Positions 9,014 to 33,507 of a stretch of 35,884 nt of DNA are shown here, piece by piece. The notes below the pieces were generated by a model. That model was not told the DNA's origin. It did not search any database and worked only from the letters and a program-made list of their open reading frames with translations. Position numbers and translations under genes: made by a program. The first letter of the stretch is position 1. Each line of letters opens with the position of its first letter. Source of the stretch: a bacterium (GTDB taxonomy: Bacteria > Myxococcota_A > UBA9160 > SZUA-336); NCBI GenBank assembly GCA_024226335.1, contig JAAELY010000052.1:1-35884 (forward strand), in the 5' to 3' direction.

Positions 9014-9079
9014 GTTCGGGAGTGTAGCCGACTATCCGTTTGCGGCTGTGCTAGCGGGCGGGCGGCTTGCCGAGGTCGC

Positions 9080-9940: not shown

Positions 9941-9981
9941 CGTACAATCCCCGCGCAATTCATTTGTAAAGAGGAGAACCC

Positions 9982-10383: not shown

Positions 10384-10465
10384 TTCAGCCGCCGTAGACC
10401 GCCAGGCCGAGGTACACGCCAATCTGCGTGCTGTCCAGCGGGGAGACGGTCCTGGTGTTCTGCGT
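10384..10465 (-). other. 82-bp gap holding an in-frame tail after the hydrolase stop
   Basis: Downstream of the hydrolase stop (TGA at 10468-10466) the same frame stays open for 26 codons to a second TGA at 10387-10385. It ends TQIGVYLGLAVYGG, which reads like a natural membrane-protein or barrel C-terminus rather than random GC-rich translation. It may be a remnant of another gene or the original longer end of the hydrolase. No separate start or Shine-Dalgarno is seen. Confidence 0.3.
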
Positions 10466-11524
10466 TCAGGATCCGGGAGCCAGGGGGAGCAGGCGTTCGA
10501 TCAGCTTCTGCTGGAATTCGGCAGGGGATTCGATCGGGACCATGTGCCCGGCTTCTTCGAACCAGACGATCTCGGTCGTGGAAGGGGCGAGGCGGGCCGC
10601 CCATTCTTCTACGAGCGGGAAGGGTGTGTTCCAGTCGTGGCGTCCCGTGAAGAAGAAGACCGGAACTTCGAACTGCGGAATCTGTGTGGGAAAATCGACT
10701 TCGTCCATGCCGCCCCAGAGGGCATCGAGGCTCGACATGAAGCACCCCAGCCATGACACGCGCGTGGACAGAGTGTATTCGCGTCCAAAGAGTGCGGACG
10801 GAAGTATGTTGAGCAACTGGTCGCTCGCGTAGATGCTGCCATCGTAGGCGTTGAGCCAGTTGCGCTGAACGACGAGTTCTTCGGACGTTCCATAGGGTGG
10901 AGAGACCGTGGCCAGCTCTTTCAAGGCTTCTTCGTCGCCGCGCCGACCGGCTTCTTCGACTACCCACTGATAGGAGAGTTCCTCGTTGCGCCGACCGTTG
11001 ACCACCTGGCCGAGCCCCACGTACGCGTAATACAGATCGGGCCGTTTCTGGGCTGCCAGAGCTCCGATGATGCTTCCCCACGAATGGCCGAGCAGGAAGA
11101 TCTTGCCCCCGGCGCCTTCGCGCCGCGAGAGGATCTCCGAAAGCTCGATCGTATCGCTCACGATCTGTTCGAGCGTCACGGTGTTCCAGTCGACCCCCTT
11201 ACAGGAGGCCCCCGCTCCGCGTTGATCCCAGTGCACCACGACGAAGTGTTCTTCGAGTCGCTTCGAGTAGTAGGGTGCGACCGGCAGCATGGCCGCACCC
11301 GGACCCCCGTGCAGGTAGAGGAGGACGGGTTGGGTCGCGTCCTGACCGCGCAACAGAAGAGTCTGTTCAAGACCGCCGAGCAGCACGCGTTCGAGCGATG
11401 CGATCGAGTTTCTTCCGGGAATCGAGGCCGTGCCCGCGGGAACCAGCCACCAGCCTGCGAAAAACAAGCAGAGAATTCCGACTAGCCCTGCCAAAGTCAT
11501 CAGTCCGCGGCGCAACCAGATCAT
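10466..11524 (-). CDS. proline iminopeptidase-like alpha/beta hydrolase (S33 type)
   Basis: A 352-residue protein with an N-terminal hydrophobic helix (LMTLAGLVGILCLFFAGWWLVP) after a short basic segment, so it is membrane-anchored or exported. The hydrolase core has LYLHGGPGAAM (the HGGPG oxyanion motif typical of prolyl iminopeptidases), HWDQRGAGAS, the nucleophile elbow LGHSWGSIIG, the acid in TGRHDWNTP, and the His in EEAGHMVPIE. This combination matches family S33, which removes N-terminal proline or acts on related amides and esters. The upstream in-frame start at 11629 would add 35 residues unlike the family; ATG 11524 places the hydrophobic helix properly. It is divergent from the MaoC gene and convergent with RidA. 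Confidence 0.82.
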   Translation of the reverse strand: MIWLRRGLMTLAGLVGILCLFFAGWWLVPAGTASIPGRNSIASLERVLLGGLEQTLLLRGQDATQPVLLYLHGGPGAAMLPVAPYYSKRLEEHFVVVHWDQRGAGASCKGVDWNTVTLEQIVSDTIELSEILSRREGAGGKIFLLGHSWGSIIGALAAQKRPDLYYAYVGLGQVVNGRRNEELSYQWVVEEAGRRGDEEALKELATVSPPYGTSEELVVQRNWLNAYDGSIYASDQLLNILPSALFGREYTLSTRVSWLGCFMSSLDALWGGMDEVDFPTQIPQFEVPVFFFTGRHDWNTPFPLVEEWAARLAPSTTEIVWFEEAGHMVPIESPAEFQQKLIERLLPLAPGS

Positions 11525-11627
11525 TTGACAATAGTATGCCAGCTCAATCGAGATGGCTCGTGCAGTTTCAACAATGACGGCTCGATGTGGATAGACTGAG
11601 AAGACCATCCGTTGGGAAAGGGCGAGC

Positions 11628-12566
11628 ATGTCTTCTGAACGCTTCCACCCACAGCCCCTGAAAACCTTTCGCGGTCCGTTGCCGAGTTCACTGACCGATG
11701 CTGCGGTCGAAGGTCAGGGCGAAGAGGGGCAGGCGATTGGGCTCTTGCGGGATGCGGGGAGTGTTCCCCCCGACGTGTTGATGGGCATGAGCTTGTTTCT
11801 GCTGGTCAATCAACCGCGCAGGCCGCGTGAAGACGGAAGCCGGCCCAAGGGTGCGGTTTCCGGTGGGGTCTGGGTGCGCGAACAGGTAACGATTCACCGA
11901 CCGGTTCGGATCGGGCAGTCCCTGGTGATCGAAGGCGAGTCGGCGCGTCGTTTCAGTCGCCGGGGTCGCCGCTACGGTGTCACGATCGCGGAGACGCGTG
12001 ACTTCGACGGCCGACTCCTGGTCTCCAACCGGACGACGGGTCTGCTGAGCTATCGCAAAGACGAAGCGCTACCCGACGGAGCCGAGGGAAGAACGGAGGA
12101 CGATCTCGGTTTCGCCGGACCCGATGCCCGCCGGGCTGTGGCCAATCCCGAGATCGACAAACTCACACGACTTTCGCCGGGAGATCGATTCGAAGGCAAA
12201 CGCTCTCTGGTGTCTCTGGAGATGATGCGCAAGCGCGATGCCGCACGAGACGAGAATCCGATCCACACCGATCCAGAGGTCGCAAAGCGCGAAGGGCTCG
12301 CCGCACCGATCGCGGGGGGATCTCATGTCGCGGCCTTTCTGACGGAGACGCTGATGCGAGCCTGGGGACCGGAAGTGCTCCTGCATGGCGCGCACTTCGA
12401 CCTCAGGTGGAAGGCGCAGACCTTTGCGGATACACGGATTACTCCCGTCGCCATCGTGAAGCGGGCGACGCCGGAACTCGTCGAACTTTCGCTGAGTGTC
12501 GAGGGTGAAGATCGAACTGCGCTCGAAGGCGCGCTGTACATTCCTCTCGCCGAGTCGCGTGGGTGA
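11628..12566 (+). CDS. double-hotdog MaoC-like dehydratase / acyl-CoA hydratase
   Basis: 312 residues arranged as two hotdog halves. The N-terminal half (about 1-145) lacks an obvious active-site motif. The C-terminal half carries DENPIHTDPEVA (Asp208, His213), matching the hydratase-2/MaoC signature D-x-N-P-[IV]-H followed five residues later by Ala. The closest named types are the FAS1-like dehydratase/MaoC proteins that hydrate or dehydrate enoyl-CoA or mesaconyl/methylmalyl-CoA thioesters; the substrate is not determined. Its TGA overlaps the GTG of the CoA-transferase gene (GTGA), so the enzymes are translationally coupled and probably act on the same CoA thioester. Confidence 0.85.
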   Translation: MSSERFHPQPLKTFRGPLPSSLTDAAVEGQGEEGQAIGLLRDAGSVPPDVLMGMSLFLLVNQPRRPREDGSRPKGAVSGGVWVREQVTIHRPVRIGQSLVIEGESARRFSRRGRRYGVTIAETRDFDGRLLVSNRTTGLLSYRKDEALPDGAEGRTEDDLGFAGPDARRAVANPEIDKLTRLSPGDRFEGKRSLVSLEMMRKRDAARDENPIHTDPEVAKREGLAAPIAGGSHVAAFLTETLMRAWGPEVLLHGAHFDLRWKAQTFADTRITPVAIVKRATPELVELSLSVEGEDRTALEGALYIPLAESRG

Positions 12567-14992
12567 CCGTCACGGCGCTCACGGGAGTTCGAGTTCTGGA
12601 CCTCGCGGATGAATCGGCCGCGTTCGCGACGCGTATCCTGGCGGATCTAGGTGCGGACGTCATCAAAGTGGAACCGCCCGGCGGAAGTCGCACGCGCAGC
12701 CGCGCGCCTTTTCTAGACGGTATTCCCGGCCCGGAGCGCAGCTTCTTTCATTTGTACCACGATGCGAACAAGCGCTCTGTCGTGATCGATCGCGCCAGTG
12801 ATGCCGGCGAAGCCCAGTTTCGAAATCTCGTGTGTTCAGCTGATGTTCTCGTGGAGACGGCGGCGCCCGCGCAGCGGGACGAGTTGCGCCTCGAATCTGA
12901 GCGGCTTCGCTCCTGGAATCCCCGACTGATTCACGCTTCCGTTCCCGCTTTTGCATCGGACGGAGAGTGGGCCGACTGGCGTGGAAACGATCTGATTGCG
13001 GGTGCGGCCAGCGGACTGGTCTGGGTATCCGGTGACGTGCGATCCGCGCCGCTGCAGGGCTCGGCTCGACCTGCATACGCGATGGCCAGTCTGGCGGCTG
13101 CGACGGGGGTGATGGTGGCTCTCTCCAGTCGCGATCGATCTTCGAGTTGCGGAGCTCACTTCGAAGTTTCCTTGCAGGAGGCCGCCTGCATGGCCGCGAT
13201 CCAGACGGCGACGCCAACCTTCTGGTCGTGGTTCGGTCGGGTTCCCGGACGTCCGGGGCTTTCCAATGCGCTGCGCTGCAAGGACGGCGGTTACGTAGGC
13301 GTGTTGATCCGGCCGGCGGGATTCGAACTCTTTCTCGACTGGGTCGAAGAAGCCGGCATCGAAACCACACTCACTCCAGAAGATGCCCACTATGCAGAGA
13401 CCGGCGCGCCCAGGCGCGGCAATCCCGTTTCGGCTGCAACTCTGGAACTCGCCGCACGCTACGGGAGAGACGCATTCGCGGAGCGCGCAGGGCGTGCGCA
13501 GATCGTATGTCTGCCGATCCTCGATTTTCCGAGCATGGAGACGCATCCCCACTATCAGGCGAACGAACAGTTTCTCGAGGTCGAGCACGCTTCACTCGGC
13601 CGGACGCTCGGCTTTCCGCGCAGCCCGGTCGACGCAATGGAACAGGATGTAGACCTCGGCCGTGCACCCCTTCTCGACGAGCACGGCCCGGAGATCGCGA
13701 GGGAACTCGCCTCGCTCAAAACGGGGTCTGCCGAGCCGCAGCCTGAACCACCGCGGTCCGCTGAGCCGGGTCCGAGGTTTGATCCCCTGCGGGCCCTCGC
13801 CGGAGTTCGCGTCGTCGACTTCTGCTGGGTACTCGCAGGACCGATCGGAACTCGACTGCTCGCTAGTTTCGGCGCCGATGTGATTCGCGTCGAGTCGACT
13901 CGCCACGCCGATGGAATGCGGTTTTCGGCGGGGCCTGATGGGAAACCCGACGCCACTCTGGGCGGTCTGTTCAATACCGCCAATGCCGGGAAACGTTCAC
14001 TCAGCATCGATCTGTCGACGGAGCGGGGTCGAGAAGTCGTGCGCCGTCTGGTGGCCGGGGCGGATGTCGTTACCAACAACTATCGGCCGGGCGCCCTCGA
14101 GCGCATGGGTTTCGGTTATGAGTCCCTGTGCCAGATTCGACCGGACATCATTCTCTTGAACCTTCCGGGTACGCACAAAGACGGACCGTGGCGCGATCGA
14201 CCGACCATGGGAAACGTCGTGATGGCCGCTTCGGGGTTCAACACTCTCATGGGCTTTCCCGACGAACGGCCCCGCGGTATCGGCGTTGCGTATCCGGACT
14301 TCACTTCACCCTACCTATTGGCCACGACCGTGATGGCGGCCTTGCGTCAGCGCGAACGCACCGGAAAGGGTCAGGAACTCGATCTATCCCAGCTATCGGC
14401 GACCATCTCCTTGCTGGGTGCGGAGTGGATGCAGTACCGCGCCACCGGCGTCCAGCCACCACCCGCTGCCAATCGAGATGCGAACTACTGTCCCCATGGC
14501 GTGTATCCGACACGCGGGGAAGATGAGTGGTGTGCGGTTGCGATCGAGGACGATGCTGCCTGGACTCGACTCTGCACCCAGATGAACCGATCTGAACTGT
14601 CGACCGATCCCCGGTTTGCCACGCATTTTGCCCGCAAGGCCAACGAGGATGAACTCGATGAGATCGTCCGCCGTTTCAGCGAGGGCCTGGACCGCTGGGA
14701 ACTCGCCGCGCGCCTGCAAGCCGACGGAATCGCCGCATCTCCTGTCGAGAATCTCCGCGATACCTTCGAGCGCGACCCGCAATTGCGCCCGCACTACCAG
14801 ATCGTGCGACAACCCGTAGCGCCTGAACTCGACATCCCCATCGATCGCGATGCGATCCGTTTTGACGGTGTCGACCAGCGCTTGACTCGCGCGCCCATGC
14901 TGGGAGAGCACAACGAGGCGGTCTTGTGTGACCTTCTGGACATGAGCGACGAGGAGTACCAGCAGTTGCGGGTCGATGGGGTGCTCGTCTAG
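12563..14992 (+). CDS. tandem class III CoA-transferase (CaiB/BaiF), two-domain fusion
   Basis: 809 residues, about twice the family's usual 400, made of two CaiB/BaiF domains: the first from VRVLDLADESAAFATRILADLGADVIKVEPP, the second from VRVVDFCWVLAGPIGTRLLASFGADVIRVE (about residue 409). Enzymes of this family move CoA between carboxylic acids through an Asp-bound anhydride. In domain 2 that Asp is visible as Asp579 in YPDFTSPYLLA. At the equivalent place in domain 1 the sequence is RPAYAMASLAAATG, with Tyr172 in the Asp position, so domain 1 is probably structural or regulatory. GTG start at 12563 overlaps the MaoC stop. The fusion resembles the heterodimer layout seen when two CoA-transferase subunits are encoded separately. 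Confidence 0.88.
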   Translation: MTVTALTGVRVLDLADESAAFATRILADLGADVIKVEPPGGSRTRSRAPFLDGIPGPERSFFHLYHDANKRSVVIDRASDAGEAQFRNLVCSADVLVETAAPAQRDELRLESERLRSWNPRLIHASVPAFASDGEWADWRGNDLIAGAASGLVWVSGDVRSAPLQGSARPAYAMASLAAATGVMVALSSRDRSSSCGAHFEVSLQEAACMAAIQTATPTFWSWFGRVPGRPGLSNALRCKDGGYVGVLIRPAGFELFLDWVEEAGIETTLTPEDAHYAETGAPRRGNPVSAATLELAARYGRDAFAERAGRAQIVCLPILDFPSMETHPHYQANEQFLEVEHASLGRTLGFPRSPVDAMEQDVDLGRAPLLDEHGPEIARELASLKTGSAEPQPEPPRSAEPGPRFDPLRALAGVRVVDFCWVLAGPIGTRLLASFGADVIRVESTRHADGMRFSAGPDGKPDATLGGLFNTANAGKRSLSIDLSTERGREVVRRLVAGADVVTNNYRPGALERMGFGYESLCQIRPDIILLNLPGTHKDGPWRDRPTMGNVVMAASGFNTLMGFPDERPRGIGVAYPDFTSPYLLATTVMAALRQRERTGKGQELDLSQLSATISLLGAEWMQYRATGVQPPPAANRDANYCPHGVYPTRGEDEWCAVAIEDDAAWTRLCTQMNRSELSTDPRFATHFARKANEDELDEIVRRFSEGLDRWELAARLQADGIAASPVENLRDTFERDPQLRPHYQIVRQPVAPELDIPIDRDAIRFDGVDQRLTRAPMLGEHNEAVLCDLLDMSDEEYQQLRVDGVLV

Positions 14993-15841: not shown

Positions 15842-16807
15842 GTGAGTGAGCGTCCGCGAATCCTGTTCGTCGACGACGAATCTCATGTACTGGAAGGCTT
15901 GAAGCGAAATCTCCGCTCGCTGCGCGATGAGTGGGAAATGGAGTTCTTCGATGCGGCCCCCGACGCCCTGAGTCAGGTCGAAAGGGCCGGAGCCTGCGTC
16001 GTCGTGACCGACTGGATGATGCCCGGCATGGACGGTGTATCGCTCATCGAACGGCTGGTGGAGTACCGCCGCGAGAGCAATGAAAGCTGTTATGTGATCC
16101 TTCTGACCGGACGCAGCGATACCAGTTCCGTGGTCGAAGCGCTGGAAATTGGTGCGGACGACTACATTGCCAAGCCGTTTGAGCTGCGCGAAGTCATCGC
16201 CCGAATCCGAGTGGGGCTTCGCGTGGTTCAACTCGAACGGGCGCTAAGGGAAAAGAACGACCAGCTCCGACACCTGAGCCTCGTGGATCCCCTGACGGCT
16301 TTGTTCAATCGCCGTCGGGCGGATGAAGTCCTGGCGGCTGAGTACGAGCGGATGCAACGCGGCATCAGCCACTTTGGAATCGTGCTATTCGATCTGGATC
16401 ACTTCAAATCGATCAACGATCGATTCGGACACGAAACCGGAGACCTCGTACTGAAGCAGGTCGCGGACTGCCTGAAAGCAGACGTCCGTCCCTATGACTC
16501 TGTCGTGCGCTGGGGCGGTGAAGAGATCCTCATCATCTGCCCGGAACTGATGGGAGAGAGGTTATTGCACGTTGCGGATCGGCACCGCCTGGCGATCGAG
16601 AACCTCTCGATCGCGACCGCACCTTCGTCGCAACACCCTTCCTCTCCGGTTCCCGTGACCGTGAGCGGTGGGTTTGCGGACACGCGCTTCTCTGGCGCGA
16701 ATTCCGTCGAGGAACTCGTCGCACTCGCCGACGCCGCGCTCTACCGGGCCAAGGATTCCGGCCGCAATCGGGTGCTAGCCGCGCAGCTGGCCGAGGCCAG
16801 GCGCTAG
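15842..16807 (+). CDS. receiver-GGDEF response regulator (probable diguanylate cyclase)
   Basis: Residues 1-125 form a CheY-like receiver (acidic pair Asp11/Asp12, phospho-acceptor Asp57 in VVVTDWMMPGMDG, Lys111 in KPFEL). Residues about 145-315 form a GGDEF domain beginning LVDPLTALFNRRR, with active-site GGEEI at 225-229, a functional variant of GGDEF. An RxxD inhibitory I-site (RPYD, 216-219) sits at the standard five residues upstream, so feedback inhibition by c-di-GMP is expected. The layout matches PleD/WspR-type output regulators made in the cytoplasm. The start is a GTG at 15842. Its receiver strikingly resembles that of the HDOD protein at 22453. No cognate kinase is adjacent. Confidence 0.93.
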   Translation: MSERPRILFVDDESHVLEGLKRNLRSLRDEWEMEFFDAAPDALSQVERAGACVVVTDWMMPGMDGVSLIERLVEYRRESNESCYVILLTGRSDTSSVVEALEIGADDYIAKPFELREVIARIRVGLRVVQLERALREKNDQLRHLSLVDPLTALFNRRRADEVLAAEYERMQRGISHFGIVLFDLDHFKSINDRFGHETGDLVLKQVADCLKADVRPYDSVVRWGGEEILIICPELMGERLLHVADRHRLAIENLSIATAPSSQHPSSPVPVTVSGGFADTRFSGANSVEELVALADAALYRAKDSGRNRVLAAQLAEARR

Positions 16808-20004: not shown

Positions 20005-20904
20005 TCAACCAACTCCCACGATGGCGGGTTTGAGGATGTGTTCATCCCGTTCGTAGAGACGGTTCGCTGGGCCCACGATCAACGGATCGGGTGGTTGAAC
20101 GATTTCTTCGTCTTTGTCGGGATAGTCGAGGCTGCTGAGCATGTGTCGCATGCAGTTCACACGCGCTCGCTTCTTGTCGTCGGACTTGATGACGGCCCAG
20201 GGGGCGTCCGCAGTGTCGGTGTAGAAGAACATGGCTTCTTTGGCCTCTGTGTACTCCTCCCATTTGCCAAAGGACTGGATGTCGATCGGACTCAGCTTCC
20301 ACTGCTTGAGGAGATCCTTCTTGCGCGAACGGAAGCGCCGCGCCTGTTCCTCGCGGCTGACCGAGAACCAGTACTTGAACAAGTGGATGCCATCGTTCAC
20401 GAGCATGCGCTCGAGTTGCGGAGCCTGGCGCATGAACTCGAGATACTCGGCGGAACTGCAGAAACCCATCACCCTTTCCACCCCGGCCCGGTTGTACCAG
20501 GAGCGGTCGAAGAGCGCGATTTCTCCGGAAGTGGGAAGACACATCACATAGCGCTGAAAGAACCACTCACCGCGTTCTCTTTCACTCGGTTTCTCGAGTG
20601 CGTGCACGTGGGCACCGCGCGGATTCAGATGCTCCATGAAACGCTTGATCGTTCCACCTTTACCCGCCGCATCCCGACCTTCAAAAATCGCGACCACCCG
20701 CTGACCGCTCTCTTTGACCCAGTTCTGCATCTTGAGCAGCTCGATCTGGAGCAGGTGCTTGTTGGTCTCGTAATCATCGAGATCCATCTTCTTCCGGTAC
20801 GGATAGGTATCGCTCAGGAAGTCCGACTTGGCCGCGCGCAAGACCTGCCCACCCGGCCGCTTCCTGTTCCGGTTTCGGCTCTTTTTCTTCGGCTTTTTCG
20901 CCAC
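20005..20904 (-). CDS. ppk2: polyphosphate kinase 2 family protein
   Basis: 299 residues. After a basic tail (AKKPKKKSRNRNRKRPGG) the PPK2 core shows Walker A FEGRDAAGKGGTIKRF (about 75-90), the PSERERGEWFFQRY lid region, and Walker B ALFDRSWYNRAGVERV. PPK2 enzymes transfer phosphate between polyphosphate and nucleotides (ADP, GDP or AMP by subclass) in the cytoplasm; this one has a single domain, fitting class I or III. Preference cannot be read safely from sequence alone. GTG 20904 is preferred because AAGGA precedes it and upstream codons are not family-like. The next gene in the transcript encodes a strongly basic protein. Confidence 0.93.
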   Translation of the reverse strand: MAKKPKKKSRNRNRKRPGGQVLRAAKSDFLSDTYPYRKKMDLDDYETNKHLLQIELLKMQNWVKESGQRVVAIFEGRDAAGKGGTIKRFMEHLNPRGAHVHALEKPSERERGEWFFQRYVMCLPTSGEIALFDRSWYNRAGVERVMGFCSSAEYLEFMRQAPQLERMLVNDGIHLFKYWFSVSREEQARRFRSRKKDLLKQWKLSPIDIQSFGKWEEYTEAKEAMFFYTDTADAPWAVIKSDDKKRARVNCMRHMLSSLDYPDKDEEIVQPPDPLIVGPANRLYERDEHILKPAIVGVG

Positions 20905-21238
20905 GGTGTTCCTTGTTCCAATTGGTGCGGAGCCTGGGAAAGGCGCCACTGGGAAGCTGAATCGATATCCATCAAGCCCGCAGGAATTGTGCCAGTCAGC
21001 AGGCCACGGGGGGCTCCATTCTCGCCCGGTACGGGGCCGTTCGCCTCAATCGGGCTTGGGAATGGGGATTTCTGTCTCTGTTCGGTGCGGACACCGGCCC
21101 CCGGTTCACGAGCGCTTCCGGTATGCCGATACGAGGCGCGTGGATCTCCACGGGCGAGGGGATCTGCCCCGAAAACCGACTCTCCCGAGGGAATGCCGGA
21201 AGAGTCGAAACAGGCACCTGCGGGCCGAGGTCATCGCG
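20905..21238. other. 334-bp divergent intergenic region, no gene seen
   Basis: This gap separates the divergent PPK2 and receiver-kinase genes. Open frames cross it on both strands, but their translations are proline/arginine-rich and lack a plausible start or Shine-Dalgarno. It should hold the promoters for both transcripts. I could not single out convincing -35/-10 pairs or an operator. GAGG eight bases before ATG 21239 serves the downstream gene. Confidence 0.5.
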
Positions 21239-22456
21239 ATGAAAGTACTGCTGGCCGACGGCTCGAGATCACACCTCGAGCACACCAAGTCCCTGGTGGA
21301 GAGCTGGGGTTTCGAAACGGTTGCAGCCGTGGATGGCGAATCGGCTCTCGAGGCGTTTCGTCGCGACTACTCTTTGCAACTGGCGATCATCGACAGGAAA
21401 ATGCCAATCCTGGACGGCTTGCAGGTGATCGATCAGGTCAAACGTTCCGGGCGTTTCGTGTTCGCAGTCATGTTGACGGAGGAGACGGAAAAGGCAGACC
21501 TCGACCGGGCGTTTGCGGCAGGAGCAGACGACTACATCAACAAACCGTTTCGACCCGCCGAACTGCGCGCCCGTCTCGTGTCTGGTCAACGTCTGGTGGA
21601 AACCCAGATGCAGCTCGTGCATGCGCAAAAACTGGAAGCGATTGGCCAGCTGGCTGCGGGAATCGCGCACGAGATCAATACCCCGGCCCAGTATGTGGGG
21701 GATAACCTGGCGTTTCTCCAGCAGTCCTTCAGCGCACTTCTGGAATTGCTCGGCACCTACCGTGCGCTGCAAGCAGCTGCCGAGGCTGGCAACGTCTCGG
21801 CCGAACTGGTCGCCAAGGTGGCCGAGGCCGCCGAGGCGGCCGACATCGAGTTCCTGGAGGAAGAGATTCCCCGGGCACTCCTGCAATCGCGAGAGGGTAT
21901 CAGTCGGGTCGCGAAGATCGTCCGGGCGATGAAGGAGTTTTCTCATCCCGGACTGGCGAAAAAACAACCGCTGGATCTGAACCGGGCGATCGAGAGTACG
22001 GCTACCGTGGCGCGAAACGAGTGGAAATACGTTGCGGAACTGGAAATGGAATTCGACCCGAACCTGCCACCGGTTCCCTGTCTGGCTGGGGAGTTCAACC
22101 AGGTGGTGTTGAACATTCTGGTCAATGCCGCCCAGGCGATTTCCGAAGGCTCGGACGGTCGTGAGAAGGGCCTGATCCGCATTCGGACGAACCGAGAGGG
22201 CGATGAATGGGTCGTACTCGAGGTCTCGGACGACGGGCCGGGGATGCCGGAAGAGATTCGGATCAAGGTCTTCGATCCCTTTTTCACGACCAAGGAAGTG
22301 GGCAAGGGTACGGGGCAAGGACTGGCGATTGCACGTTCCGTCGTCGTGGACAAGCACGGCGGCACGATCGAAGTGCAGAGTGCCGTTGGCCAGGGGAGCA
22401 CCTTCCGCATTCGCCTGCCGCTTGGCGTTGAGGAGAACGCGGGGAGCGTCGATTGA
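21239..22456 (+). CDS. receiver-histidine kinase (REC-HisKA-HATPase)
   Basis: 405 residues in reverse hybrid order. Residues 1-118 are a receiver (phospho-Asp52 in AIIDRKMPILDG, Lys102 in NKPF). A helix leads to the HisKA H-box GIAHEINTPAQYVGDNLAFL with His144. A long coiled insertion follows (about 165-225, EAGNVSAELVAKVAEAAEAA). The HATPase has N-box FNQVVLNILVNAAQA, G1 SDDGPGMP, F-box FDPFFTTK and G2 GKGTGQGLA. There is no membrane segment, so it acts in the cytoplasm and receives its signal as phosphate or through a partner. Its TGA overlaps the TTG start of the receiver-HDOD gene, so kinase and likely target are translationally coupled. Confidence 0.93.
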   Translation: MKVLLADGSRSHLEHTKSLVESWGFETVAAVDGESALEAFRRDYSLQLAIIDRKMPILDGLQVIDQVKRSGRFVFAVMLTEETEKADLDRAFAAGADDYINKPFRPAELRARLVSGQRLVETQMQLVHAQKLEAIGQLAAGIAHEINTPAQYVGDNLAFLQQSFSALLELLGTYRALQAAAEAGNVSAELVAKVAEAAEAADIEFLEEEIPRALLQSREGISRVAKIVRAMKEFSHPGLAKKQPLDLNRAIESTATVARNEWKYVAELEMEFDPNLPPVPCLAGEFNQVVLNILVNAAQAISEGSDGREKGLIRIRTNREGDEWVVLEVSDDGPGMPEEIRIKVFDPFFTTKEVGKGTGQGLAIARSVVVDKHGGTIEVQSAVGQGSTFRIRLPLGVEENAGSVD

Positions 22457-23655
22457 GCCGCATTCTCTTTGTCGACGATGATCAGAGCATCCTCGACGGG
22501 TTGCGGCGAATGCTGCGTTCGCATCGCGAGGAATGGGAAATGGTTTTTGCGGGGAGTGGCCGCGAGGCACTCGAAGCTGCCGAGGCGTCTCCGTTCGACG
22601 TGCTCGTGACCGACATGAAGATGCCCGGCATGGACGGCACTGAGTTGCTCAAGTGTTTCCAGTCGCGATTTCCTGAGACCGTGCGCTTCGTACTCTCTGG
22701 CCATGCCGAACTCGAGAGCGTCATGCGAACCGTTCCGGTCGCCCATCAGTTCCTGACCAAGCCCTGCGATGCCGAGGTGCTCAAGGATGCCGTGACCCGG
22801 GCGTGCGAGCTGCGTTCTCTGCTCCGCAACGAGAGTGCAAAGCAGGTCGTCGGGACGCTGGACAGCCTGCCTTCGCGGCCAGAGACCTATGCGGCGATCC
22901 TGGAAGCGATCGCGGATCCGAACGCCGAAATGCAGCCGATCGTGGAGATCCTGAAATCCGATGTCGCGATGTCGGCGAAACTTCTGCAACTGGTGAATTC
23001 GGCCTTTTTTGGGCTCCCGCAACGCGTCGCAGATATCGGTCAAGCCACGATGTTTCTCGGACTCAATATGCTCCGAGATCTCGTACTCTCGATCGAAGTC
23101 TTCCAGCCGCCTCCCAATGCGACGGCTGCAATGGAGCATTTTCTTGCCGATCTCCAGGCGCGCTCGATGTGGACCGGACACATCGCCTCGCGGATGTTCG
23201 ATGACAAGCAGATCGGCAATCAGGCGTTTACTGCCGGAATGCTTCACGACATCGGCCTGCTGGTCATGGCTACACAGCTCCCGGAAGTTCTTTCCGAAGC
23301 CATCGAAAAGTCATGCAGGATCGGCCAACCGCTGTACGTCGTTGAAGAAGAACTCAACGGTGTGAGCCATGCCGAGATCGGTGCGTATTTGTTAGGCGTC
23401 TGGGGGCTGCCTTACCCGATTCTCGAAACCGCCGCCTATCACCACCGGCCGATGGATCTTCCCCAGAGGGCTTTTGGCGAGCTCGCAGCCGTACACGTGG
23501 CGAGTTCCCTGGTGGACGCGAGAATTGGTGCGGTTGGCGAGAGTCCACGAGGCCCGATCAACCTCGCCTATCTCGACTCCCTGGGCGTTCGCGACCAGCT
23601 CGAAGATTGGGAAGCTCTGGTAGACCGGGAAATGGACTTCGTCGGAGGGGCCTAG
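22453..23655 (+). CDS. receiver-HDOD response regulator
   Basis: 400 residues. The receiver (1-120) has Asp8/Asp9, phospho-acceptor Asp54 in VLVTDMKMPGMDG, and Lys103 in TKPC. The HDOD domain (about 135-340) shows IVEILKSDVAMSAKLLQLVNSAFFG, the helix-rich GMLHDIGLLVMATQLPE, and AYHHRP. HDOD is an HD-like domain generally without phosphodiesterase activity, used in signalling and chemotaxis control. The TTG at 22453 overlaps the kinase stop (TTGA), with GGGGAG before it. Because the kinase upstream carries its own receiver, a phosphorelay from the kinase to this regulator is the natural inference. Confidence 0.93.
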   Translation: MSRILFVDDDQSILDGLRRMLRSHREEWEMVFAGSGREALEAAEASPFDVLVTDMKMPGMDGTELLKCFQSRFPETVRFVLSGHAELESVMRTVPVAHQFLTKPCDAEVLKDAVTRACELRSLLRNESAKQVVGTLDSLPSRPETYAAILEAIADPNAEMQPIVEILKSDVAMSAKLLQLVNSAFFGLPQRVADIGQATMFLGLNMLRDLVLSIEVFQPPPNATAAMEHFLADLQARSMWTGHIASRMFDDKQIGNQAFTAGMLHDIGLLVMATQLPEVLSEAIEKSCRIGQPLYVVEEELNGVSHAEIGAYLLGVWGLPYPILETAAYHHRPMDLPQRAFGELAAVHVASSLVDARIGAVGESPRGPINLAYLDSLGVRDQLEDWEALVDREMDFVGGA

Positions 23656-24674: not shown

Positions 24675-26051
24675 TTGACGCTGTTCTCCGATCCGGAATC
24701 ATCGACCGACGATCTCAAGCTTCTGGCCATCGGTGACGTTCACCTCGGGACGCGCCCTTCGAGTCTACCCGAGGGCCTCTCCGATCTCGGAGTCGATCCC
24801 CGCGCTCTCACGCCGGAAGCCGCGCTACTGGCGGCGGTTGATAGCGCCGTCGAGGAGCGCGTCGACGCAGTGCTGTTTGCCGGAGATGTCGTCGAAGATA
24901 CGAACGCTCGTTTCGAAGCTCTTCGGCCGCTCGAACAGGCGGTCCGCCGCCTGCTCGCGGCCAACATCCCGGTGCTGGGCGTGGTCGGCAACCACGACGT
25001 GGAGGCTCTGCCCCGTCTCGCGGGCATGATCGAGGGTCTGGAACTTCTGGGAGAACGGGGCCGCTGGCAGTCGCGCGTGATCGACAAGGACGGTCGGCCT
25101 GCACTCGAGGTTCTGGGCTGGTCCTTTCCCGAAAAACATGTGCGCAGCAGTCCTGTCGCCGATCTCCTGCGCAAGCCGATGGCGCCTGTGCATCCGGGGA
25201 TTCCGCGCATCGGTCTGCTTCACGGCGATCTGGATGCTTCGGGTGGAAGCTATGCACCCTTCACCCGTCGTGAACTCGCCGACGCGGGCCTCGATGCCTG
25301 GCTGCTGGGACATATCCACAAGCCTTCGTTGTCCGGGGCGGCCGGCACCGGTGAGCGGGGACCTTGCGGTTACCTCGGTTCGCTCGTCGGTCTCGATCCG
25401 GGCGAGACGGGCCAGCGCGGTCCCTGGCTGGTGCGTGTCACGAAAGCGGGCCAGATCGAAACCCGACAACTCGCGAACGCTCCGCTGCGCTGGGAACATC
25501 TCGATGTTCGTGTGGCGCAGGACGAGGAGGCCGAAGACGTCGGCGATCGTCTGCTCGAGGAGGCCGAGCGATTTGCGCGCCAGATCCAGACCCGGGGAAT
25601 CGCTCCGCAGGCCCTCGGTCTGCGCTTGCGGCTCGTGGGAGCTACCCGGAACTACGACGCGCTGCGCAACTTTGCCAAAGGCGGGCGATGGAAAGGCGGA
25701 ACGCGTCGGGCCGGGGAGACGCTCGTCTTCATCGACAAAGTGCTCGACGGTCTCGATCTCGCACTTGACCTGGAAGAACTGGCGCGCGGTGACGATCCCC
25801 CTGCGCTCCTGGCGCGCAAGCTGCTCATCCTCGAGCAACCTGGGGAGCCAAGACGCGAACTGCTGGAGGCCGCGCGTTCGAAACTGCAAGACCTGGCACG
25901 CGAGCCCCGTTGGTCGGTCCTGGACGAACAACGCGACTCGGCGGATCCGCTGTGCGAAGATGCGCTCGCCAGCCTGCTCAAGAAATCCGGGACCGCTGTA
26001 TTGAGCGAGCTGCTCGCGCAGCGCGTTCCCGATGCGGAAACCCGCTCGTGA
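24675..26051 (+). CDS. SbcD/YhaO-type metallophosphoesterase (DNA repair exonuclease)
   Basis: 458 residues with all calcineurin-like phosphoesterase motifs: AIGDVHLG (Asp21, His23), FAGDVVED (Asp71), VGNHDVE (Asn106, His107), LLHGDLDASG (His183) and LLGHIHKP (His213, His215). These bind two metals in Mre11/SbcD nucleases. The C-terminal part beyond about 250 is a capping region. TTG 24675 is chosen because GAGGGG (24662-24667) is seven bases upstream and no family-like ATG is available. Its TGA overlaps the GTG of the next gene, a YhaN-like ATPase, so the pair forms an Mre11-Rad50-type complex, here of the YhaO/YhaN branch. Substrate ends and polarity are not known. Confidence 0.92.
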   Translation: MTLFSDPESSTDDLKLLAIGDVHLGTRPSSLPEGLSDLGVDPRALTPEAALLAAVDSAVEERVDAVLFAGDVVEDTNARFEALRPLEQAVRRLLAANIPVLGVVGNHDVEALPRLAGMIEGLELLGERGRWQSRVIDKDGRPALEVLGWSFPEKHVRSSPVADLLRKPMAPVHPGIPRIGLLHGDLDASGGSYAPFTRRELADAGLDAWLLGHIHKPSLSGAAGTGERGPCGYLGSLVGLDPGETGQRGPWLVRVTKAGQIETRQLANAPLRWEHLDVRVAQDEEAEDVGDRLLEEAERFARQIQTRGIAPQALGLRLRLVGATRNYDALRNFAKGGRWKGGTRRAGETLVFIDKVLDGLDLALDLEELARGDDPPALLARKLLILEQPGEPRRELLEAARSKLQDLAREPRWSVLDEQRDSADPLCEDALASLLKKSGTAVLSELLAQRVPDAETRS

Positions 26052-29000
26052 AGCTGCGTCACCTCGCGATCGAGCGCCTCCCCGGGATCGACCGTCCCTT
26101 CGAACTCACAAAACTGGGCGACGGACTCTCGGTGATCGTCGGGCCCAACGGGATCGGGAAGTCGCAACTCTGTGCTGCGGTGCGTGCGCTCGTATGGCAC
26201 GAGCGGGGCGTCAAGGACGGCGGACTTGCGGCCAGTGCCGTCTTTGAACACCAGAACGCATCCTGGCGCGTAGTGCGCGATGGCTCACTTCATCGCTGGC
26301 AACGCGACGGCATCGATGAGGATCCACCTGCGTTGCCGGGTGAGCGCCTGGAAGGTTGCTTCTTCCTCGGCCTGCGCGACCTGCTCGACGCTTCGGATCG
26401 CGCGGGCCTGAACCTGCCAAACGAGATTCGCCGGCAGATGGCGGGCGGCTTCGATCTCGATGCGGTCCAGCAGCGGTTCGGAGGCTCGCTGCCGCCACGC
26501 GTTGGGGGCAAGGAGAGCAAAGCTCTCAGCGCCGCCGAAACCGAGCTTCGAAACGCTGAACTGGGCCAGGCCGGTCTCGAGAAGCGCGAGCGGGAACTCG
26601 AGAATCTGGAAAAGCGCGCGAACGCCGCAGAGATCGCTTTGCAGCGCCTCGTTCACTACGAGACCGCGCTCTCACTGGAGACGATGCGCGCCGATATTGC
26701 GCAAAAGGAAAGAGACCTCGAAGGCTTGCCCAAGTCGCTCGCGGATCTGGATGGCAGAGAAGTCGAGCGGCTGGAGAAGTTCGAAGAAGACCTTGCGCAG
26801 AAGCGACACGACCGGGAAGAGGCGGAAGGCTCCCTCCGCGAAAGCCGCGAAGCCGCGAGCCTGACTCTCCTGAAGGAGCCGATCGAGCGCAGTGTTCTCG
26901 GCACCTGGCGCGAGCGTGCGGAGAATCTCGCGGAGATCGAGCGAAATCTGGAGGTCGCGAAGAGTGAAGCGGCCTCCAGCCAAAGCGCAGCGGAGGCCAG
27001 GCGACGCGCACACGGTGCTCACGCTGAAAGCGGTACGGGGGCCGAGCCCGGAACCGCGCTCGCGATCGCCGATGATTTCGATCTCTTCGCGTTCCTCGAG
27101 GAGAGCCATCCGCTCGCGGCGAAGCGGGAAGAACTGGAGCAGCGACTTGCACTCCTGACCGAGCGCGGATTTTCCGACGAGGACAGACGACGTGCGGAAG
27201 TCTTGAAGCGCGGTATCGAACCGTTGCGGGCCTGGTTGCGAGCACCCGATCCCGATCAGCGCTCCAGTGCGCTGCTGCTCTGGCCCGGGCGCGGTTTCTG
27301 GATCGCGACGGCAATCGTCTTGTTCGCACTCGCTCTGGCCGGATTCTACTTCGAACGAACTCCACTGCTTACTCCGGCGCTGATGGGAGGGGCATTCGGT
27401 CTGGCGGTGGCCGCTCTACTGACTCGGGCACGGCTCGAGACACGCGATGCAACCGATTGGCGTTCGGTCGCCAGGCAGCAGTTCCCGGATGCGCTCGAGC
27501 CGCCGGAGCGCTGGTCCGTCGAACTCGTGCAAGACCGCCTCCGACAGTATGAAGACCAGTCGGCCAAGCTCGATGCCGACGAGAAACGCGCTCGCGATCG
27601 GTCGGTTGAGCGCGGAACAGTCGAGCAGGACTTGAAAGGCCTGGAAGCTCCCGCGGCCGCTTTGGAAGAGCGCCGCATCGCACTCTTCGATCGCCTTGGC
27701 CTGGCCGAAATCCGACCGGATGTCGAACTCGTCGGGCTGGCGCGAGCCCTGGATGAATCCCGCGCCGCACAGGTGGAGGCACTCCGCGCTCAGGCGAAGG
27801 TCGAAAGGTATGTACGACTCCGATGCGAGCTGCTCGAAGAGATCGCCGTATTTGTTTCCGAGTTCGGCGAGCCGTCACCGACGGACTCGGCTTCCGCTCG
27901 GGCGGCGGTCCACTCTCTCGAAGAGCGCGACCTCGCGCTCCGGAGTGCGAACTCCAATGCGATTCGAGATGAGAAGACTCGCGAACGACTCGATCGCGAT
28001 ATCGCGCAACTCGACGCCGGTCGGGTCGAGATCTTCCGGATCGCCGGGCTGGATGCGGGGGATCGCGTTGGACTCGTGCGGCTTCTCGCCGATCTCGACT
28101 CTTACCTTCAGTTGAAGACTCAACGCTCTGAACTGGCGTCGCGTATCGAACGCGCCGAGTCGGATCTGGCCGCTGCGGAAGAAACCGCACTTGCGGCATG
28201 CGGCGCGGCCCAGCTGACCGAAGAGCAGGCGGACCTGAAGGCGGAATCTGCTCAGCGCGGGGCTCTCGACCGCCAGATCGGGGAGATTCATCAGGCCGCG
28301 CAGGCAGCTCGAGAAGGTCACGCACTCGAGGATGCGCTCGCGAAAAAGAGTGCAGTTCTGGACGAGTTGCGCGATCGCCGCGCTGAAGCTCTTGCAGCCC
28401 ATGCAGCCGATTTCCTGATCGAAGGCGTTCGCCACGAACATGAGACGAAGCAGATGCCACGCGTGCTGGAACGCGCACGGGATCGTTTCGCCTCCTTCAC
28501 TCACCATCGCTACGAGTTGAACGTCTCCCCCAGCGATGGTGGCTCCTTCGTCGCCGTCGATACGACCAACGGCGTCGGACTCCGTCCAGAACAACTCTCG
28601 GACGGAACCCGGGCGCAACTCATCCTCGCGGCGCGTCTCGCTTTTGCCGAGGAGGCGGAACAGGGTGCTGATCTGCCCTTGTTCCTGGACGAAGCTCTGG
28701 ATCACAGCGATCCGGAGCGCTTTCACGCCATTGCCCGAAGCCTGGCGCGCATGGTGCTCGACGAAGCGCGTCAGGTCTTCTACCTGAGCAACGACCCGAG
28801 CGATGTCCAGCGCCTGCGGGCCGCCTTTGCCGAGGAAGGCTGCGATCAGCTGGACACCTATGACCTCGGGCAGATTCGCGCGCAAGCAGCCCGCGGTCAC
28901 GGTGCTCCGGTACTGCGGGTCGCGCCACTGGCTTCCGTGCCGAGTCCGGACGGAACCGATCCCGAGAGTTACGGCGCCGCGCTCGGTGTCGCGTCCCTCG

Positions 29001-29581
29001 ATCCCCGCCGCGACCCGATGAGTCAACACCTCTTCTATGTGCTCCGGGATGACATCACCCTTCTCTACGATCTCCTGCAGGCGCGGATCGAAACGGTGGG
29101 TCAATGTCGCAACCTGCTGAAAGGCGAGAGTCCACTGGCCAGACAGTTCATCGCTAGCAGCGAAGTCGGCCCGCAGCTCACGGCACGGATCGAGCTGCTC
29201 GAGATCTTCTGTCACGCCTGGCGTGAAGGTCGCGGCGCGAGGGTGGAACGCGCGGAACTCGAACAGAGTTCAGCGCTGAGCGAGAAGTTTCTTAACCCGG
29301 TGGTCGAAGTCGTTGCGGAACTCGCTGGAAATGCCTCGGATCTGCTCGTCGCGCTGCGCGAGCGCAACAAGGATCCGCGGCTCAGCGGCTTTCGCAGCAA
29401 GTCCGCGGACGACCTCGAGCAGTTCTTTATCGAGCACGGCCATATCGACGACCGGCCGATTCTCGACGAGGGCCAGATCAACGAACGTGCGGTCGGCACG
29501 CCGGCCGCCAACGCGCTTTCTCCCAGGGTTGCGGCTGAACTCGTGCACCAATGGTGGAGCCTGAGCGAGCCCGTCGGCTGA
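26048..29581 (+). CDS. YhaN-like SMC/Rad50-type ATPase with membrane hairpin and extra C-terminus
   Basis: 1177 residues. Walker A GPNGIGKS at 32-39; long coiled-coils from about 160 to 400 and 490 to 830; between them two hydrophobic helices (about 418-435 and 439-458: FWIATAIVLFALALAGFYF, then GGAFGLAVAALL), the mid-protein membrane hairpin known in B. subtilis YhaN. The C-terminal ATPase lobe has signature LSDGT (850-854) and Walker B LFLDEALDHSD (around 881). The H-loop place reads FYLSNDPSD, without the usual His. About 235 further residues follow, mostly helical, an extension beyond the ATPase core. The overlapping start with the SbcD-like gene (GTGA) indicates a nuclease-ATPase complex, probably tethered to the inner membrane. 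Confidence 0.9.
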   Translation: MKLRHLAIERLPGIDRPFELTKLGDGLSVIVGPNGIGKSQLCAAVRALVWHERGVKDGGLAASAVFEHQNASWRVVRDGSLHRWQRDGIDEDPPALPGERLEGCFFLGLRDLLDASDRAGLNLPNEIRRQMAGGFDLDAVQQRFGGSLPPRVGGKESKALSAAETELRNAELGQAGLEKRERELENLEKRANAAEIALQRLVHYETALSLETMRADIAQKERDLEGLPKSLADLDGREVERLEKFEEDLAQKRHDREEAEGSLRESREAASLTLLKEPIERSVLGTWRERAENLAEIERNLEVAKSEAASSQSAAEARRRAHGAHAESGTGAEPGTALAIADDFDLFAFLEESHPLAAKREELEQRLALLTERGFSDEDRRRAEVLKRGIEPLRAWLRAPDPDQRSSALLLWPGRGFWIATAIVLFALALAGFYFERTPLLTPALMGGAFGLAVAALLTRARLETRDATDWRSVARQQFPDALEPPERWSVELVQDRLRQYEDQSAKLDADEKRARDRSVERGTVEQDLKGLEAPAAALEERRIALFDRLGLAEIRPDVELVGLARALDESRAAQVEALRAQAKVERYVRLRCELLEEIAVFVSEFGEPSPTDSASARAAVHSLEERDLALRSANSNAIRDEKTRERLDRDIAQLDAGRVEIFRIAGLDAGDRVGLVRLLADLDSYLQLKTQRSELASRIERAESDLAAAEETALAACGAAQLTEEQADLKAESAQRGALDRQIGEIHQAAQAAREGHALEDALAKKSAVLDELRDRRAEALAAHAADFLIEGVRHEHETKQMPRVLERARDRFASFTHHRYELNVSPSDGGSFVAVDTTNGVGLRPEQLSDGTRAQLILAARLAFAEEAEQGADLPLFLDEALDHSDPERFHAIARSLARMVLDEARQVFYLSNDPSDVQRLRAAFAEEGCDQLDTYDLGQIRAQAARGHGAPVLRVAPLASVPSPDGTDPESYGAALGVASLDPRRDPMSQHLFYVLRDDITLLYDLLQARIETVGQCRNLLKGESPLARQFIASSEVGPQLTARIELLEIFCHAWREGRGARVERAELEQSSALSEKFLNPVVEVVAELAGNASDLLVALRERNKDPRLSGFRSKSADDLEQFFIEHGHIDDRPILDEGQINERAVGTPAANALSPRVAAELVHQWWSLSEPVG

Positions 29582-30965: not shown

Positions 30966-31940
30966 ATGGATTTCGAGGTCATCGATACCACCGTCCAGGC
31001 GCTTTGGCGCTACGACTACGACACGAACATCAAGGCCCTGCGCGATCTCTACGAACTGGCGAAGAAGGAGCAGTGGAACGCGGCCACGGATATTCCCTGG
31101 GAACTCGAGACCGATCCCGCGTCTGTGGGAGACATGATGTCCGATCCCGGAGTCGAGCCGTACGACTTCGTCAAGGCGCTTCCGACCGAGAAGCAGATCG
31201 AACTATCAAAGCGGCGCTCGGCTCACCTCTTGTCGAATTTCCTGCACGGCGAGCAGGGCGCGATGATGATCTGCGGTCAACTCGTCGAGGTCGTTCCGGA
31301 CATGGACGGCAAGCTCTACGCATCTACCCAGGTGATCGATGAGGCGCGCCACGTCGAGGTCTTCGCCCGCTACATCCAACGCCTCGACCGGATCTACCCG
31401 ATCATGCCCGGACTGAAAGCGCTGCTCAATGCCGTGCTGCAGGCGGACTTGTGGCAGATGAAGTGCGTTGGAATGCAGGTGATCGCGGAGAGCCTGGCGA
31501 TGGGATCGTTCAAGAAGATGCAGGAGATCACGGAAGACGATGTTCTTCGCAAGGTCTTCGAACTCACTGCGCAGGATGAAGCGCGGCACGTGTCCTACGG
31601 CTTGATCTACATGAAGGACGAGATCCCGAAGATGAACGAGCGCGATCGCGACCGCCTCGAGGACTTCGCCTTCACCGCGATGACGATTCTGGCGACCAAT
31701 GGCCTGATGGAAGAGCAGCAGGGCAAGAAATGGGTCGATCCACTGGACCAGGTCTACAGGGATCTCGGTATCGACCCCAAGAAGGCGAACGACGAGATCA
31801 TCTCGAGACTGAGCGATCCAGAGGCGCTCAAAGCGCAACCGAACCCCTTTCGCGACTACGCCTATCCGCAATTGGAGCGGATCGGTCTGATTACGGATCG
31901 CACGTTTTCGAAATACCGTGAAGTGGGTCTGGCGGAGTAA
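30966..31940 (+). CDS. ferritin-like diiron protein
   Basis: 324 residues, mainly helical. Metal-ligand motifs of a ferritin-like four-helix bundle appear in order: LHGEQGA (Glu96), IDEARHVEVF (Glu126, His129), IAESLAMG (Glu175), and AQDEARHVSYG (Glu205, His208). The two E-x-x-H pairs fit a carboxylate-bridged diiron site, as in R2-like, AurF-like and related oxygenases. Reaction and substrate cannot be read. It heads the plus-strand catabolic row, with the BVMO 100 bp downstream and an AraC regulator divergent upstream, which suggests O2-dependent oxidation of the same substrate class. Confidence 0.83.
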   Translation: MDFEVIDTTVQALWRYDYDTNIKALRDLYELAKKEQWNAATDIPWELETDPASVGDMMSDPGVEPYDFVKALPTEKQIELSKRRSAHLLSNFLHGEQGAMMICGQLVEVVPDMDGKLYASTQVIDEARHVEVFARYIQRLDRIYPIMPGLKALLNAVLQADLWQMKCVGMQVIAESLAMGSFKKMQEITEDDVLRKVFELTAQDEARHVSYGLIYMKDEIPKMNERDRDRLEDFAFTAMTILATNGLMEEQQGKKWVDPLDQVYRDLGIDPKKANDEIISRLSDPEALKAQPNPFRDYAYPQLERIGLITDRTFSKYREVGLAE

Positions 31941-31984
31941 CGACCGGGGACCCGGCCGACTGGTTTCTGGCGAATCGGAAAAGG

Positions 31985-31998
31985 AACCCGAAAGGGTT
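31985..31998. other. GAAA-tetraloop hairpin before the BVMO gene
   Basis: AACCCGAAAGGGTT is a perfect five-base stem with a GNRA (GAAA) loop, 42 bases ahead of the BVMO start. It has no T-run on the plus strand. It may be a processing or attenuation structure between the diiron and BVMO genes. Confidence 0.4.
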
Positions 31999-32040
31999 TA
32001 AGATCACGGGGTCCAGCCAACACTGATTCCGGGAGAAGAC

Positions 32041-33507
32041 ATGACGAGCGATTCGACGGGTAGCGGTCCGCGCTTCATCATCATTGGAGCGGGAATGTCG
32101 GGGATCCTCAGCGCGATCAAGCTGCAGGAAGCCGGTCTTGACAACTACGCGATTTACGAAAAGGCCGAACGCCTCGGGGGTACGTGGCGGGAGAACGAGT
32201 ACGCGGGTGTGGCCTGCGACGTTCCTTCGCATTTCTACTGCTTCTCGTTCGCCCCCAACCCCGAGTGGAGCCATCGCTTCTCGCCCGGAGCCGAGATTCA
32301 GCAGTACTTCCTGGACGTGGCCCATCGCTACGGAGTGGACTCGCGCATCCAGTTCAACACCGAGATCACCCACTGCGAGTTCGAGAACGGGCGCTGGAAG
32401 ATCCAGATGGCCGATGGCTCCAGCGACGAGGGCGATTTTGTGATCGCCGCGACCGGCGTTCTGCACCACCCCTCCTATCCCGATATCGAGGGTCTCGATT
32501 CGTTCGAGGGCACGAGTTTTCACAGTGCTCGGTGGAACCACGACGAACCGCTTGCGGGCAAGCGCATTGGCGTGATCGGTACGGGTTCGACCGCGATCCA
32601 GATCGTGGCAGCCCTGGTCGACGACGCGGCTTCGCTCTCACTCTTCCAGCGGACCGCCCAATGGGTCATGCCTCAGGAGAACCCGGCCTATAGCGAAGTC
32701 GAGAAGACGGAGTTCCGGGAGCACCCAGAGGTCATTCAGGCGATGCGCGAGGAGATTGCGCAGATTTTTGCGGATGGCTTCTCCAACGCTGTCGTCGACG
32801 CGAGTTCTCCACAACTCGTGGCGATTCACGAAGCTTGCCTGGCGAATCTCGAGACCAGCGTGAAGGATCCGGAACTCAAAGAGCGGCTCCGGCCGAACTA
32901 TCGGGCGGGCTGCAAGCGCTTGATCATGTCGGAGAACTTCTACGACGCCATCCAGCGCCCCAATGCGCACCTCGTTACGGATGACATCGAGCGGATCGAG
33001 AAAAACGGCGTGCGAACGAGTGACGGAACCCTGCACGAACTGGATGTGCTGATTCTCGCCACGGGTTTCCGGGTTGATCGCTTCATGCGGCCGATGAAAG
33101 TGACCGGCCGCAGCGGTGTTTCGCTCGAGGAAGCCTGGAAGGAAGGTCCGAGTGCCTACATGGCGATCTCGGTTCCCGAGTTCCCGAATCTCTTCATGCT
33201 CAACGGCCCCAACGGGCCGGTGGGGAATTTTTCTCTGATCGAGGTCGCGGAACTGCAGTTTGCGTACATCATGCAGTTGGTCGAGCAGGTTCTTTCCGGT
33301 GCGTGCAAAGAGGTGAGCGCGAAGCAAGAAGCGCTGGACCGCTTCGACGTCGATCGCAAAGAGGCGGCCAAGTCGACGATCTGGCAGAGCGGATGCGATA
33401 GCTGGTATCTGGATGCCGATGGCGTGCCGGCCGTCTGGCCCTGGACTTTCGACCGCCTTCGCGACGAAATGGCAAAGCCGCGCCTCGCCGACTACGAAAT
33501 GAAATGA
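32041..33507 (+). CDS. flavin-containing Baeyer-Villiger-type monooxygenase
   Basis: 488 residues. FAD-binding GAGMSG at 16-21 and GGTW at 46-49; the BVMO fingerprint F-x-G-x-x-x-H-x-x-x-W is exact as FEGTSFHSARW (155-165), followed by Asn-His-Asp; NADPH-binding GTGSTA at 180-185. Type I BVMOs insert one oxygen from O2 next to a ketone carbonyl, giving an ester or lactone, using FAD and NADPH. The substrate is unknown; cyclic ketones, steroids and long-chain ketones are all found in the family. GGGAGAAGAC precedes the ATG. The ADH and crotonase downstream could make the ketone and process the product. Confidence 0.92.
   Translation: MTSDSTGSGPRFIIIGAGMSGILSAIKLQEAGLDNYAIYEKAERLGGTWRENEYAGVACDVPSHFYCFSFAPNPEWSHRFSPGAEIQQYFLDVAHRYGVDSRIQFNTEITHCEFENGRWKIQMADGSSDEGDFVIAATGVLHHPSYPDIEGLDSFEGTSFHSARWNHDEPLAGKRIGVIGTGSTAIQIVAALVDDAASLSLFQRTAQWVMPQENPAYSEVEKTEFREHPEVIQAMREEIAQIFADGFSNAVVDASSPQLVAIHEACLANLETSVKDPELKERLRPNYRAGCKRLIMSENFYDAIQRPNAHLVTDDIERIEKNGVRTSDGTLHELDVLILATGFRVDRFMRPMKVTGRSGVSLEEAWKEGPSAYMAISVPEFPNLFMLNGPNGPVGNFSLIEVAELQFAYIMQLVEQVLSGACKEVSAKQEALDRFDVDRKEAAKSTIWQSGCDSWYLDADGVPAVWPWTFDRLRDEMAKPRLADYEMK

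Follow-up and report, generated by a model that had tools for sequence, protein, structure and literature searches.

Complexes of the Mre11-Rad50 type play a central part in the repair of DNA breaks. In the window, by which we mean the whole 35,884-nucleotide stretch of DNA that was analysed, a nuclease gene of this general kind is followed by the gene for an ATPase that runs about 235 residues past its ATPase lobe (linker and tail, about amino acids 940-1177). This raises the question of whether the extra segment is a genuine protein module, how widely it is shared among related nuclease-ATPase pairs, and what it might contribute to them.

The nuclease and ATPase genes

The upstream gene of the pair (positions 24675 to 26051, forward strand) encodes a 458-residue Mre11/SbcD-type metallophosphoesterase nuclease that matches the Metallophos family with an E-value of 1.6e-12; it begins with a TTG codon, the exact start being uncertain. 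The downstream gene (26048 to 29581, forward strand) begins with GTG and encodes a Rad50/YhaN-type ABC ATPase of 1177 residues. The two reading frames overlap by 4 nucleotides, so that both the overlap and the length of the ATPase given in the preliminary description are confirmed. This arrangement recurs among relatives, with a nuclease gene lying directly upstream of the ATPase gene in every one of the 46 scored loci and with overlaps that are mostly of 1, 4, or 8 nucleotides.

All five metal-binding and active-site motifs of a metallophosphoesterase, which we looked for as marks of an Mre11-Rad50/SbcCD-type complex, are present in the nuclease (GDVHLG, GDVV, GNHD, LLHGD, and GHIH). Residues D21, H23, D71, N106, H107, D108, H183, H213, and H215 are kept in 31 to 33 of 34 homologues, and the nuclease is active-site-complete as judged from its translated sequence. 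The labels "SbcD/YhaO-like" and "YhaN-like" given to the two proteins in the preliminary description stand as statements of resemblance. They do not stand as statements of family membership, since the SbcD model TIGR00619 gives the nuclease 36.5 bits, below the curated cut-off of 77.65, and the ATPase scores 17.6 bits against the AAA_27 model, for which the cut-off is 22. The window nuclease is the sole SbcD-like match in its 97%-complete genome.

Motifs, lobes, and membrane hairpin of the ATPase

The translation and the alignment of homologues both support the nucleotide-binding motifs and the two-helix membrane hairpin that had been read from the sequence. On the forward strand, the Walker A motif GPNGIGKS (amino acids 32-39) is encoded at 26141 to 26164 and is kept across the alignment, the ABC signature LSDGT (amino acids 850-854) at 28595 to 28609, and the Walker B motif LFLDEAL (amino acids 878-884) at 28679 to 28699. 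These motifs are split over two ATPase lobes, as is expected of an Mre11-Rad50/SbcCD-type protein, and the profile of the C-lobe matches the Rad50 ABC-ATPase in the PDB (3qkr and 1ii8) with an E-value of 2.7e-5. The hairpin lies between the two lobes (about amino acids 417-458; 27296 to 27421, forward strand) and consists of hydrophobic segments at about amino acids 417-435 and 440-458 with hydropathy peaks of 2.18 and 1.96. Every full-length homologue has one or two hydrophobic segments at this same site. A zinc hook (CxxC) is absent from the apex of the coiled coils, where amino acids 400-470 contain no cysteine and the membrane hairpin is found instead.

The H-loop position reads FYLSNDPSD (amino acids 911-919; 28778 to 28804, forward strand) in both the translation and the alignment. 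It thus lacks its histidine, as had been proposed, yet this trait is common to the entire subfamily (FYFTAQ or FYLTxNP) and not peculiar to the window ATPase. Tail-less YhaN ATPases vary at this position, some being without the histidine (FTCSS) and others having it (LFSHH, LTCH).

The C-terminal tail

Beyond the ATPase lobe, a linker (about amino acids 940-965; 28865 to 28942, forward strand) of variable length, with gapped alignment columns and low model confidence, leads into an all-helical C-terminal domain (about amino acids 966-1177; 28943 to 29578, forward strand), which is delimited by a 24-sequence alignment and by an AlphaFold2 pLDDT of 93. The AlphaFold2 model built from the tail alignment has a mean pLDDT of 93.1 and a pTM of 0.84, with values of 68-72 at the start of the linker. 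When the lobe and the tail were modelled together, the C-lobe being included without its N-lobe, the pTM was 0.58 and the pLDDT of the linker was 66-69. Given the low confidence of the linker and the pTM obtained with the lobe included, the models suggest that the linker probably forms a flexible tether between the lobe and the tail.

The core motif of the tail is GRGxxVxR..LE.S.A(V/L)S..F ... F(R) ... G.(I/L)D, and residues G1061, R1062, F1115, L1123, and G1131 show little or no variation in a 47-sequence tail alignment. Homologues with as little as 17% and as much as 53% tail identity retain the tail over its full length. This retention, together with the recurrence of the pair in every scored locus, indicates that the tail is not a chance open frame, and the earlier suggestion of a conserved module is supported. 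All 24 members tested have a tail with a net acidic charge, and in most of them it is strongly acidic.

Searches of the tail sequence against Pfam, NCBIfam, and the PDB gave no match for the family, which agrees with the preliminary description, where the tail was not a module that could be recognised. Likewise, a Foldseek search with the tail model against the PDB and BFVD returned no match with an E-value below 0.8. Matches of the tail to CxC1, MakB, CalS8, and a single-member DUF4129 were weak or isolated and were discarded. No internal repeats were found in the tail; the one strong hhalign match represents the overlap of two query pieces. The tail is a real, conserved domain that is recognised by no library searched here.

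Distribution of the tailed ATPase

A search of 60 relatives yielded six full-length ATPase homologues with 32-54% identity, all of which have the tail. At the class level, matches occur patchily, in 16 of 91 genomes, and the class and phylum searches gave matches in 29 of 379 genomes. Within one ATPase clade, 47 of the 54 members sampled carry the tail; they come from Myxococcota, Planctomycetota, Bacteroidota, Balneolota, Rhodothermota, and haloarchaeal plasmids. No hits came from a pattern scan that used only the window protein. The pattern scan of named genomes detected the tail in Myxococcales, Planctomycetaceae, Bacteroidota, Balneolaceae, Rhodothermales, and the cultured Brumimicrobium glaciale, as well as an incomplete copy in Delongbacteria that lies at the edge of a contig. 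In that scan the tail is always the C-terminal part of its reading frame, and a nuclease gene was recognised directly upstream in most loci with a readable flank. A plasmid search placed the tailed ATPase on plasmids of Natrinema, Haloarcula, Halosimplex, Salinigranum, Haladaptatus, and other haloarchaea, with the nuclease gene adjoining the ATPase gene in the three intact loci that were opened (3/3). Searches of phages and viral contigs revealed no relatives.

These results divide what had been expected of the tail. That it would be found only on ATPases linked to an Mre11-type nuclease holds wherever the flank is readable; that it would be lineage-specific does not, given that it spans several phyla of bacteria as well as plasmids of haloarchaea. 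When only the tail was used as query, nearly the same genomes of the phylum were recovered as with the ATPase, so the tail is tied to this ATPase and was not seen free-standing.

Two candidates for a stand-alone tail gene were rejected. One, on a Halorussus caseinilyticus plasmid, belongs to a frame-broken second copy of the pair: nuclease, ATPase, and tail are spread over positions 7807-12645 of that locus (L100), where the detached tail has been annotated as a "hypothetical protein" (11917-12645). Elsewhere on this plasmid there is another copy, which has a long open frame (W04:C1:21203-22333). The other, from a Planctomycetaceae genome (L121; G380:C199, 2283-2846), is only a fragment, nearly identical to a part of the tail of the full-length copy (L047) on another contig of the same genome.

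Tail-less relatives and the history of the tail

We built a tree from the C-terminal ATPase lobe with 62 rows. One of its two clades holds six tail-less YhaN ATPases of the same class, together with two YhaN-type proteins that the Bacteroidota search had found, and all 47 tailed proteins fall in the other (100/100). The same-class YhaN ATPases, which have other nuclease partners, score 63.9 and 75 bits against AAA_27 and end right after the ATPase lobe. Since they stop at the lobe and form a separate clade, we rule out that the tail is a standard YhaN C-terminus. One further tail-less row (L084) was dropped because it is over-diverged; its position inside the tail clade in the first tree, on a branch 3.03 long, is taken as an artefact.

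Seven tail-less proteins nest inside the tail clade at two places, one occupied by L039 and the other by L134-L139. Their sequences end no more than about 15 residues beyond the lobe, and the nuclease gene is still adjacent. On the sequences sampled, this pattern fits one gain of the tail at the base of the ATPase clade followed by two independent losses. Given that two lineages appear to have lost the tail and yet kept the pair, the tail would be dispensable. In both of these lineages the signature glycine is replaced by alanine (LSSAT or LSDAT), and most tailed members keep the glycine; the tailed proteins L038, L041, L051, L061, L099, and L132 also have the alanine. With two losses to go by, this association is weak and gives a weak hint of a link between the tail and head engagement. 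A comparison of the nucleases of tailed and tail-less lineages revealed no conserved residue with a change in both, which leaves the idea that the tail docks on the nuclease unsupported.

Genomic context

Among 32 neighbourhoods we found no third conserved gene; besides the pair, there is just synteny shared among close relatives. The neighbours of the pair in the window are metabolic and signalling genes. Genes for a GGDEF response regulator, a histidine kinase with a receiver domain, and an HDOD response regulator are clustered upstream of the pair (15842-16807 and 20828-23655). Elsewhere in the window, an aldehyde ferredoxin oxidoreductase (AFOR) gene overlaps the gene of a DUF3604 protein by 4 nucleotides (3392-5275), and an AurF-like N-oxygenase gene is followed by a flavin monooxygenase-like gene (30966-33507).

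Possible roles of the pair and its tail

The reading that we somewhat favour from these sequences is that the pair represents a distinct, membrane-anchored subfamily of Mre11-Rad50-type nucleases, whose accessory helical tail would most likely serve in protein docking or regulation. The metallophosphoesterase and its coupled ABC ATPase would form a membrane-anchored DNA nuclease complex with a hairpin at the site of the Rad50 zinc hook. By homology, this complex would hold DNA ends and trim them in an ATP-dependent manner, the hairpin being its anchor in the membrane. By analogy with Mre11-Rad50/SbcCD, the ATPase would dimerise on ATP, hold DNA ends near the membrane, and gate the nuclease. 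The tail would hang from the head side of the coiled coils by its probably flexible linker and, as a presumed accessory module outside the catalytic core, may dock a repair or replication partner, or the heads themselves.

Its net acidity, flexible tether, and two losses make partner recruitment or regulation a better fit for the tail than the reading of DNA ends, and the acidity and the losses argue against an essential role in DNA binding. We consider it unlikely that, as the preliminary description suggested, the tail senses the state of DNA ends at the membrane, acting as a DNA- or end-binding domain through its GRGR...R and FR positions. The evidence that points this way is that R1062, the most conserved charged residue of the tail, is lysine or arginine in 96% of sequences and that positions 1064, 1068, 1116, and 1147 are partly conserved as basic (72-74% lysine or arginine), all of which could equally serve nucleic-acid contact, and that the R..L..SGAVS..F stretch has a helix-turn-helix look, with AlphaFold2 helices at tail residues 129-134 and 140-152. 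Set against this are the acidity seen in 24 of 24 members, the lack of a match to any DNA-binding family or fold, and the two losses in lineages that retain the pair. Regulation of ATP-driven head engagement by the tail in cis, for which the signature alanine of both loss lineages speaks, seems to us rather unlikely, as six tailed members have the alanine too and an association drawn from two losses is weak.

The patchy occurrence of the pair (16 of 91 class genomes) and its haloarchaeal plasmid copies, some of them beside toxin-antitoxin-like or integrase genes, would suit an accessory anti-plasmid or anti-phage defence system in which the tail recognises a target or recruits an effector, as would similarity to mad8 and mad3 in PADLOC. 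However, the PADLOC matches are partial and weak (the best, to mad8, has 31 bits) with no clear full-length defence match, the window neighbours are not defence genes, and no third gene is conserved. Moreover, pair-bearing genomes of the class tend to be without a second SbcD-like nuclease: another SbcD-like match occurs in 3 of 13, versus any such match in 45 of 78 genomes without the pair (p = 0.03, in a test that ignores relatedness and includes weak matches, not all of them confirmed as nuclease-ATPase pairs). We regard defence as quite unlikely, and replacement of a housekeeping SbcD-type complex by the pair fits these counts better, as a lead only. That the tail is an unconserved extension without consequence, as its loss in some lineages might imply, is highly improbable, being contradicted by conservation across bacterial phyla and archaea and by a confident fold.

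A broader proposal, which we put forward tentatively, is that the tail may be a previously undescribed domain with a fold absent from the PDB, one that would define a separate membrane-anchored Mre11-Rad50-type branch common to bacteria and haloarchaeal plasmids and would couple the nuclease to a specific partner or target. A widespread membrane-tethered branch with a conserved domain of unrecognised fold offers a defined, deletable module for which the natural tail-less relatives are controls. The tail could help to test why some Mre11-Rad50-type nucleases are located at the membrane and what directs them to their targets.

Comparison with known systems

The N-terminus of a haloarchaeal tailed ATPase resembles ASRP (Archaea-specific SMC-related protein, NF045487), with 47.1 bits and an E-value of 1.3e-12. 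However, this best relative falls far under the 300-bit cut-off, the 593-position model matches the N-terminal part only, and the window ATPase was not among the ASRP matches in the NCBIfam search. The likeness to YhaN/YhaO (AAA_27, PF13514), for which a literature search of incomplete coverage found no characterisation, lies in the nuclease gene directly upstream and, for the tail-less YhaN-type proteins L140 and L141, in a hydrophobic hairpin between the lobes. Unlike YhaN, the window ATPase continues past the lobe and belongs to a clade separate from the same-class YhaN proteins. Against AAA_27, the other members of the clade of the window ATPase score at most 21.3 bits, where the window ATPase has 17.6 and the cut-off is 22. 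Unlike the YhaNOM operon, no third gene (yhaM) accompanies the pair across the 32 neighbourhoods. The window pair differs from Mre11-Rad50/SbcCD (TIGR00619, PF13558) in a nuclease below the SbcD cut-off and in an ATPase that lacks the H-loop histidine, has a membrane hairpin in place of the zinc hook, and carries an extra C-terminal helical domain. It shares with these complexes adjacent nuclease and ABC ATPase genes, the metallophosphoesterase motifs, a Rad50-like C-lobe, and an ATPase with Walker A, signature, and Walker B motifs.
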